From a bacterium (GTDB lineage: Bacteria; Sysuimicrobiota; Sysuimicrobiia; Sysuimicrobiales; Segetimicrobiaceae), in contig DASSXJ010000222.1 in assembly GCA_035703895.1 (NCBI GenBank), forward strand, positions 1 to 34,727: 34,727 nucleotides of DNA, written 5' to 3'. Of this stretch, positions 9,638 to 11,614 are shown in pieces. The translations under genes and the position numbers were made by a program. The notes under the pieces are model-generated. The model did no database searches and was not told where the DNA came from. It was given only the letters and a program-made list of their open reading frames with translations. The stretch's first letter is position 1. The number at the start of each line of letters is the position of its first letter.

Positions 9638-10524
9638 TCAAAAGAGCCCGACTTGCTCCGGCTCGGCGGGAGGTTGAATATACCGGGGTTGAAGTGGACC
9701 GACCCGCGCCTTCTCCTGCGCGACGATCTCCGCAATCTCGCGCACATATGCCGGCGGCGCGTACTGTCCTGGATAGAGACGGCGGTACAGCGGAAGCAGT
9801 TCTGGGTGCTGGCGAGAGAGGAACCGGTGAAACGCATCCTTCGTCACGTGGCCCAGGTACAGGACGCGATGGCCGACGAAGCTCACCCCTGCTCCCGCGG
9901 CGGCCCGGATTACCTCCGCGAGAGATTCGGGGTTGTCGGTCAGCCCGGGGAGGACGGGTGCGAGAAGCACGCCCGTGCGGATCCCGCGGTCCACCAGCAT
10001 CCGGACGGCACGGAGCCGCTGAGCGGGCGGCGCGACCGTGGGCTCGATCTCTCGGGCTCGCTGCCGGTCCATCGTCGCAATGCTTACGCATACGGTCACC
10101 CCGGCGCGCCCAGCCATCTCCGCGAGAATGTCGAGGTCACGCACGATCAGGGGGCATCGGGTCACAATGCCGACCGGAGTGCGAAAATCGCGCAGTGCCT
10201 CCAAGATGCCCCGCGTGATGCGATACCGTCCCTCAATCGCCTGATAGGGGTCGGTGGCCGTGCCGAGGGCCACTTCCTCCCGCTTCCACGTCGAGCGGCT
10301 CAGCTCGCGCCGCAGCACCACTGGGGCATTCACCTTCACGAAGATCTTGGACGACCAGCCGTCTACTCCGTCCTCATCGAGGAACCAATGAGTGCGCCGG
10401 GCATAGCAAAAGGGCACGCATGCGAGCACCCCCGGTATGGGTTGATGGACCACCGGAACGGCATCCCGGTGACCCGGTTCAGGACGGACTTCACGTCGAT
10501 CTCGGCGAACTCTTTAGCGGCCAT
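9638..10524 (-). pseudogene. Rv2578c-type radical SAM protein (spore photoproduct lyase-like), frameshifted in the CxxxCxxC motif
   Basis: Two frames make one gene. From ATG 10524 (GGGAG upstream) the first frame reads FAEIDVKSVLNRVTG, then WSINPYRGCSHACPF. The second frame continues CYARRTHWFLDEDG and runs to the stop at 9638 with family features FVKVNAP, GTATDPYQAIEGRYRITRGIL, VLLAPVLPGLTDN and SFVGHRVLYLG. The expected C-S-H-A-C-P-F-C cluster motif is split by one missing base in a T-run (A4 on the plus strand, 10408-10411). One more T restores a full protein of about 295 residues. The third cysteine belongs to the 4Fe-4S cluster of radical SAM enzymes, so neither fragment should be active alone. 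A homopolymer sequencing error, a true mutation or frameshifting are all possible. The gene is divergent from a DinB-like gene, with an SOS-type operator between. The substrate of this family is not established to my knowledge. Confidence 0.82.
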
Positions 10525-10542
10525 GGTGCTCCCATGATAGTA

Positions 10543-10556
10543 CGAACACTTGTTCG
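10543..10556. promoter_or_regulatory. SOS box (LexA/DinR-type operator) in the divergent promoter
   Basis: CGAAC-ACTT-GTTCG: both five-base arms are perfectly complementary and match the Gram-positive-type LexA operator CGAAC-N4-GTTCG. It lies in the 49-bp gap between the radical SAM start (10524) and the DinB-like start (10574), where a bound repressor could silence both genes. TACTAT just beside it on the minus strand could be a -10 box. Confidence 0.65.
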
Positions 10557-10573
10557 AGTCAATGGGGGTCTTT

Positions 10574-11614
10574 ATGAAGGCGATCGAGCTGTTCCCTTAC
10601 TGGGCGGACAACCGGGCTCACCTGATGGAGGTCGCGGCCACGCTCCGGGATGAGGATTTGGAGTTCCGCCCCGCGCCGGGGTTTCGGTCTGTGGGAGAGG
10701 TGCTGCGGCACATGGTCACGACCGAGGAGAACTGGTGGCACGGTGGGATCCACGGGAAGCCCTATGACGAATGGCGTCCCGCTGGGTGGGAGCGCTTGAC
10801 CGATGAAGAAAAGGCCGAGTACCGGCGGCAGCAGTTTCCGACGGCCGGGGCGATTCTGGAGGGGCTCCGGGCGGCGCACGCCCCCCTGGAGTCCTTTCTG
10901 AACGAGGTGGATGCCGCCGACCTGTGCGAGAAACGCCGCGCCATCTGGGGCGAGGACAATACGCTTCGGTGGATCCTCTGGCACCTTGTTGAGCACGACC
11001 AGCATCATCGCGCTCAGCTCTACTCACGCGTGCGGATGCGCGGGTACAACCCGTCCCAGATCTGGCCACGGTCCGGCGTGATGGGACGGACCCCGGCGCG
11101 CGAGTGGCGTGGAGACGAGGTGGCGATCGCCGACATCGTGCCCTTCTGGAAGCAGGTCCATGGCACGCTGCGCCGGGCCACCAGCGCCCTGACCGACGCC
11201 GATCTCACCTTTGCGCATGCGCCGGGGCGCCCGACGATCCACGACCTCATCCTCCACATGTTCATCTGGGAAGATTTTCTGATCCGCCAGAATCTGGGGA
11301 AGCAGATGGGGACGGCCAGCGGCAAGATTCAAGGGTGGTTCTGGCGATCGGATGTCTCCCAGATGGCGCGCAACGTCGGCCCCTACTTCCCCACGGTCGG
11401 CGCGCTGATCGAGGGGATGGATGCGGTCCACGCCGCCACCCGGGCGTTCGTGGATGGGCTCGCCGTGGCGGACGTCGCGAAGGCCGTAGAGACGCCGCGG
11501 GGACCGGAAACGGTGCACCACGTGCTGTGGTACGCGCGCGAGCACACCGTCCACCACCGCGCCCAGCTGTTTTTCCGGATGCGGATGGCGGGGCGGACGC
11601 CGCCGGAGATCTGA
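10574..11614 (+). CDS. Tandem DinB-like four-helix-bundle protein
   Basis: 346 residues made of two DinB/YfiT-like domains in tandem, an unusual arrangement since most members have one. DinB-like proteins (DNA-damage-inducible in Bacillus) bind a divalent metal through three histidines and include thiol-dependent transferases. Domain 1 (about 1-165): VGEVLRHMVTTEENWW and WHLVEHDQHHRAQLY. Domain 2 (about 180-346): IHDLILHMFIWEDF and WYAREHTVHHRAQLFFRMR. Each thus keeps one His in helix 2 and the His pair in H-x-x-HH-R-A-Q-L. The start is ATG 10574, with GGGGG 5 bases upstream; ATG 10562 or TTG 10550 would extend it a little, the latter into the SOS box. Its promoter region holds a strong LexA-type palindrome, supporting damage-inducible expression. 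The reaction is unknown. It converges on the mutase gene with only 6 bases between. Confidence 0.83.
   Translation: MKAIELFPYWADNRAHLMEVAATLRDEDLEFRPAPGFRSVGEVLRHMVTTEENWWHGGIHGKPYDEWRPAGWERLTDEEKAEYRRQQFPTAGAILEGLRAAHAPLESFLNEVDAADLCEKRRAIWGEDNTLRWILWHLVEHDQHHRAQLYSRVRMRGYNPSQIWPRSGVMGRTPAREWRGDEVAIADIVPFWKQVHGTLRRATSALTDADLTFAHAPGRPTIHDLILHMFIWEDFLIRQNLGKQMGTASGKIQGWFWRSDVSQMARNVGPYFPTVGALIEGMDAVHAATRAFVDGLAVADVAKAVETPRGPETVHHVLWYAREHTVHHRAQLFFRMRMAGRTPPEI

Follow-up and report, generated by a model that had tools for sequence, protein, structure and literature searches.

A LexA-type operator and a probable end-joining scar at an intein insertion point in a radical SAM gene of an uncultured bacterial phylum

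Here we describe a radical SAM gene, found in a 34,727-nucleotide stretch of bacterial DNA (the window), whose promoter carries an SOS operator and whose reading frame is broken at the very point where relatives harbour an intein. We consider it likely, with good confidence, that the broken gene is a null allele, left when end joining sealed the cut of a homing endonuclease in a gene under SOS control. We also lean, by a small degree, towards a broader interpretation, natural resistance to a gene drive: the intein endonuclease would repeatedly reinvade an SOS-inducible and dispensable gene, and end joining, in the window's family itself controlled by LexA, would leave behind null alleles that can no longer be cut.

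Results

The two divergent genes under study are separated by 49 bp (10525-10573), the leftward one starting with an ATG at 10524 and the rightward one with an ATG at 10574. The initial annotation had placed a LexA-type palindrome in this gap, and it is indeed there: CGAACACTTGTTCG, at 10543-10556, is the sole exact CGAACN4GTTCG within the window, while shuffled versions of the window contain 0.03 such sites on average. The palindrome fills the 17-bp spacer of a leftward sigma70-type promoter, TTGACT...TATCAT (Table 1). The exact operator precedes the radical SAM gene in 18 of the 23 orthologues of the order, and in one further orthologue with a single mismatch; the spacing of the -35 element, the box and the -10 element is maintained across them. 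Given this order-wide conservation of the layout, the earlier proposal of SOS control holds for the radical SAM gene, though not for its genus-limited DinB partner (see below). Among 80 named relatives, exact sites were present in all six Eremiobacterota that had a recognisable motif, many Chloroflexi and Actinobacteria had a one-mismatch form (mostly CGAACN4GTTCT), and none of the 25 Acidobacteria had the operator. Within the 624 kb of these 80 loci, 11 of the 12 exact sites precede the radical SAM gene. Judged by its sequence and position, 10543-10556 is almost certainly the LexA operator of the radical SAM gene, to which LexA would bind; DNA damage would trigger cleavage of LexA and so relieve repression of the gene. 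We infer that this gene, of the COG1533/SplB-Rv2578c kind, is SOS-inducible.

Table 1. Position of the features discussed in the text (window coordinates unless a contig or locus is named)
Feature	Position	Strand	Remarks
Rv2578c-like radical SAM gene with 1-nt deletion	9638..10524	-	N-terminal frame from ATG 10524; C-terminal 271-aa frame 10453-9638
Lesion at TTT^TGC (third Cys of CxxxCxxC), lacking one T	10406..10411	-	exact intein insertion point in relatives
-10 element TATCAT, radical SAM promoter	10534..10539	-	LexA box in the 17-bp spacer to the -35 element
Candidate LexA operator CGAAC-ACTT-GTTCG	10543..10556	no strand	fits the genome's SOS consensus CGAACANNTGTTYG; conserved in orthologues
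-35 element TTGACT, radical SAM promoter	10557..10562	-	most orthologues of the order have TTGAC/TTGA- in the corresponding position
Tandem two-domain DinB-superfamily protein, 346 aa	10574..11614	+	conserved DinB His residues in each half
LexA-type site before ku	G000 C255:339-352 (L243)		one mismatch
LexA-type sites before ku in relatives	L276, L278, L279, L280, L283		upstream of ku

The genome from which the window comes (G000; 4.38 Mb, 97% complete) has genes for two LexA proteins, seen as two profile matches above the cut-off, and contains 10 exact CGAACN4GTTCG sites versus 2 for the reversed control. A tighter consensus, CGAACANNTGTTYG, is found at the window site and upstream of lexA (CGAACACATGTTTG), recA (CGAACAAGTGTTTG), ku, dnaB and a gene for an HRQ1-like helicase, and close variants of it precede dinB (pol IV) and ruvC. 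The initial annotation had suggested looking for a lexA gene and for the motif before recA and lexA, and both are present in this genome. The second lexA gene (C64:12387-12986; L012) has the variant sites CGTACATACGTTCG and CGTACTAGTGTTCG upstream. A consensus site (C233:11725-11738; L006) lies directly 5' of the HRQ1-type DEAD-box helicase, and a LexA-type site (C17:17547-17560; L208) lies 5' of dnaB, the same dnaB holding a LAGLIDADG intein. We discarded as an operator a site inside recA (C81:18346), which falls in coding sequence, the true recA box being upstream; no convincing repair gene adjoins the exact sites on contigs C214, C241 and C271, which may be there by chance.

Within the window's family, ku is preceded by exact LexA sites in four genomes (G005, G006, G009 and G011) and by one-mismatch sites in G000 and G001; no exact site was found before ku in the sampled genomes of the order's other families. 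These sites point to a possible SOS induction of end joining in the window's family. To our knowledge, neither ku nor an HRQ1-like helicase gene is a standard member of LexA regulons.

The leftward protein matches the radical SAM Pfam domain PF04055 (31.8 bits versus a gathering score of 29.5) and, over its C-terminal part, the Rv2578c family NF038135 (E 2e-73, 247.5 bits). Its earlier assignment to the Rv2578c group thus stands as far as the superfamily and the relationship are concerned, but not as membership of the family proper, for which the equivalog cut-off is 430 bits; no orthologue of the phylum reaches this value (best 324.6). No solved structure matching the radical SAM profile was found. 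By analogy with SplB, and given the predicted SOS control, the likely area of action of the enzyme is DNA repair.

The stretch 9638-10524 is, however, not one reading frame, and the frameshift had been missed by the initial annotation. The N-terminal frame runs through ...NPYRGCSHACPF into AMPGALIG... (around the lesion, ...SINPYRGCSHACPF-AMPG) and stops at codon 54, and the C-terminal frame begins one base off it. The window has TGC CCT TTT GCT ATG, versus TGC CCN TTY TGC TAY in relatives, and the third Cys of CxxxCxxC is out of frame, while intact relatives have the whole motif in a single frame. The same loss, without a homopolymer, is seen in G005, a member of the same family but of a different genus (TGC CCT TTC GC TAT). 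No second copy of the gene was found in the G000 or G005 genomes. As read from the DNA, a normal full-length radical SAM enzyme could not be made in G000, and the gene appears to be a recent null allele that has lost its function.

Seven orthologues of the phylum (G004, G006, G009, G011, G023, G038 and G042), one of them from the window's own genus (G004), contain an intein directly before the third Cys. The junctions follow the pattern F/Y-C...HN-C[YF]AR, where hyphens mark the boundaries, and most of these inteins have LAGLIDADG motifs (LAGLIDADG_3). The T missing from the window falls exactly at their insertion point. The same site is occupied in many actinobacteria (Actinomycetota sample, 397 genomes); in one actinobacterial order the intein was present in about 46 of 141 gene-bearing genomes (table count, 232 genomes sampled). 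Across the two phyla the inteins are mostly 50-62% identical versus 35-50% for the host proteins and, being more alike than their hosts, as mobile elements should be, have moved horizontally.

Mini-inteins of about 150-166 aa without an endonuclease occupy the same site in G023, G443, G638, G471 and G702 (L054, L235, L236, L237 and L227), and would represent decayed stages of the homing cycle. The starts of three contigs (L084, L085 and L225, from G011, G038 and G569) lie at the gene's intein junction or within it, possibly reflecting intein-plus and intein-minus strains that coexist in the samples. A more distant radical SAM gene on L092 (G038:C189) adjoins a separate intein-like open frame.

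The lesion of the window is one of seven out-of-frame indels of 1-5 nt in intein-free alleles of two phyla: -1 in G000 and G005, +1 in G506 and G836, +2 in G800, and +5 in G799 and G825. They represent at least six independent events, G506 and G836 being of the same genus and having the same lesion type; G799 and G800 are also of one genus, and their lesions differ. Relative to the insertion point, all seven fall at -6 to +1, that is, in 8 of about 930 nt. If indels were spread evenly over about 930 nt, the probability of six independent ones all falling in 8 nt would be about 4e-13, a rough figure for which G506 and G836 were counted once. The five actinobacterial scarred alleles were found by looking for partial matches, and the survey is blind to in-frame indels at the site and to very short end fragments. 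In the alleles surveyed, the rest of the radical SAM gene showed no small frameshift, and the other breaks (G702, G501, G918 and G904) are large deletions or are located elsewhere. Six candidate breaks (G756, G569, G984, G891, G961 and G957) proved to be alleles with the intein, several of them at the end of a contig. Two candidate scars were rejected, G916 with a frameshift inside the intein region and G904 with a deletion at the intein's 3' side. Two further actinobacterial lineages yielded no new scars in small samples of 16 and 40 genomes.

For each scarred genome, close relatives have either an intact gene or one with the intein. Apart from the lesion, each scarred frame is open, and six of the seven alleles have retained the LexA box (the contig of the seventh starts too close); with frames and promoters so preserved, the events look recent. 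Since the third cluster Cys is put out of frame, each scar should abolish the enzyme. Ku is encoded in all seven scarred genomes.

The rightward gene encodes, as first annotated, a two-domain DinB-like protein: two DinB_2 stretches were recognised (E 1e-31), and the DinB superfamily profiles PF12867 and PF05163 score 110 and 104 bits, above the cut-off, with two stretches each. The initial annotation had further proposed that a shared operator couples the DinB-fold and radical SAM enzymes as a two-gene damage-response module. The divergent pair does surround a single operator in G000 and G004, with a looser pair in G002, and the name DinB originally referred to damage inducibility. However, DinB orthologues adjoin the radical SAM gene in the window's genus only (G001, G002 and G004), whereas the operator and the radical SAM gene go together throughout the order; the box is consistently part of the radical SAM promoter, while its distance to the DinB gene varies (about 17, 50 and 165 nt). 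With a pairing confined to one genus and a distance that is not constant, there is no sign of a conserved module, and we rejected the pair as a conserved unit. Moreover, no conserved rightward promoter towards the DinB gene was noticed, and the radical SAM frame is broken in the window's own genome. We therefore regard the module as improbable.

Discussion

The above observations could be explained as follows. The gene of other strains and species is occupied, directly before the third Cys, by an intein that contains a LAGLIDADG homing endonuclease. The endonuclease would cut intein-free copies at the insertion point, and wherever Ku-type end joining closes the break before an intein-bearing template is copied into it, a small indel would result that destroys the gene and the cut site together. 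The T missing from the window would be such an end-joining scar, and the same would have happened repeatedly in other lineages. A site-specific double-strand break repaired by end joining is expected to leave just such a set of small and varied indels at one point. The cutting, the joining and the spread of the alleles by resistance are steps that we infer.

An origin of the indels in sequencing or assembly errors, or in chimeric assembly of mixed intein-plus and intein-minus strains, deserves attention, as most of the genomes were assembled from metagenomes, and all, as far as visible, are either drafts or metagenome-derived. Several contigs from relatives (G569, G011) terminate precisely at the intein junction, and three of the seven lesions (G000, G506 and G836) lie in runs of T, where sequencing and slippage errors are commoner. 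Such errors, however, would have had to strike one 8-nt spot in seven genomes of two phyla, in forms that vary from the loss of one base to the gain of five; four of the lesions are outside homopolymers, one scarred genome (G506) is a single contig, and the frames of the genes neighbouring the radical SAM gene in the window are open. An artefact of this kind therefore seems to us improbable. Still less plausible is a programmed frameshift, in which ribosomes would slip by -1 at C CCT TTT and yield a fixed proportion of full-length protein. The heptamer CCCTTTT is of the slippery type, and a slip there would restore CPFCYAR exactly, but the same slip in G005 would give Arg and not Cys, the remaining lesions call for a shift in the opposite direction (+1) or come after +2 and +5 insertions, one of which creates a stop, and relatives in the same genus have a plain frame. 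We consider this explanation very improbable.

Imprecise loss of an intein at the DNA level, as opposed to failed homing into an empty site, would likewise place indels at the intein position, and is compatible with the alleles of G000 and G005. In the five actinobacterial alleles, however, the TAY-TGC junction is intact, and the added bases are about 2-6 nt upstream of it and contain no intein-derived sequence. The untouched junction favours the cut of an empty site over imprecise loss, which we hold to be unlikely. Our preferred reading thus remains end joining after an endonuclease cut.

If confirmed, this reading would mean that an escape route from gene drives seen in the laboratory occurs repeatedly in nature, and the scars would indicate where an uncharacterised endonuclease cleaves. 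They would also account for the disruption of a conserved SOS gene in some species. Independently of the scars, the order-wide operator brings an uncultured phylum within the range of the SOS regulon, which here has an unusual member in Ku. End-joining null alleles are familiar from engineered gene drives and from laboratory plasmids. For natural recurrent scars we found no report in a literature search limited to open papers.

The regulon resembles the Gram-positive-type LexA regulon of B. subtilis and mycobacteria in its operator (CGAAC-N4-GTTCG), in the position of the operator in the promoter spacer and in its lexA, recA, dinB and ruvC content, and differs from it in that the window's family adds ku and the HRQ1-like helicase. 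SOS control of SplB/COG1533 radical SAM proteins has already been published (PMC8565304), and the Streptomyces venezuelae radical SAM gene vnz_31145 is a listed LexA target (PMC9380542); the literature searched contained no paper linking Rv2578c to LexA. Our case has in common with these systems a radical SAM gene under LexA control, but concerns the Rv2578c-like subgroup, an uncultured phylum and a broken allele. The DinB protein has the four-helix fold and conserved His of the DinB/YfiT superfamily (mycothiol S-transferase, 8f5v; DR0053, 6iz2; ClbS, 7mtl), and differs from these proteins in having two domains in one chain, in an AlphaFold model of moderate quality (pLDDT 68).

The published homing cycle comprises empty, active and decayed alleles (PMC3229294), and in Haloferax, on laboratory plasmids, cutting by an intein endonuclease is followed by end joining and escaper mutations (PMC10643990). 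A site-specific endonuclease and empty alleles are common to these systems and to ours, whereas the published cycle has no class of natural intein-free null alleles produced by end joining. Finally, NCBI already recognises an intein-containing Rv2578c family radical SAM protein (NF038136); in contrast to the members of that family, the window allele is free of the intein and bears its lesion at the intein's insertion point.
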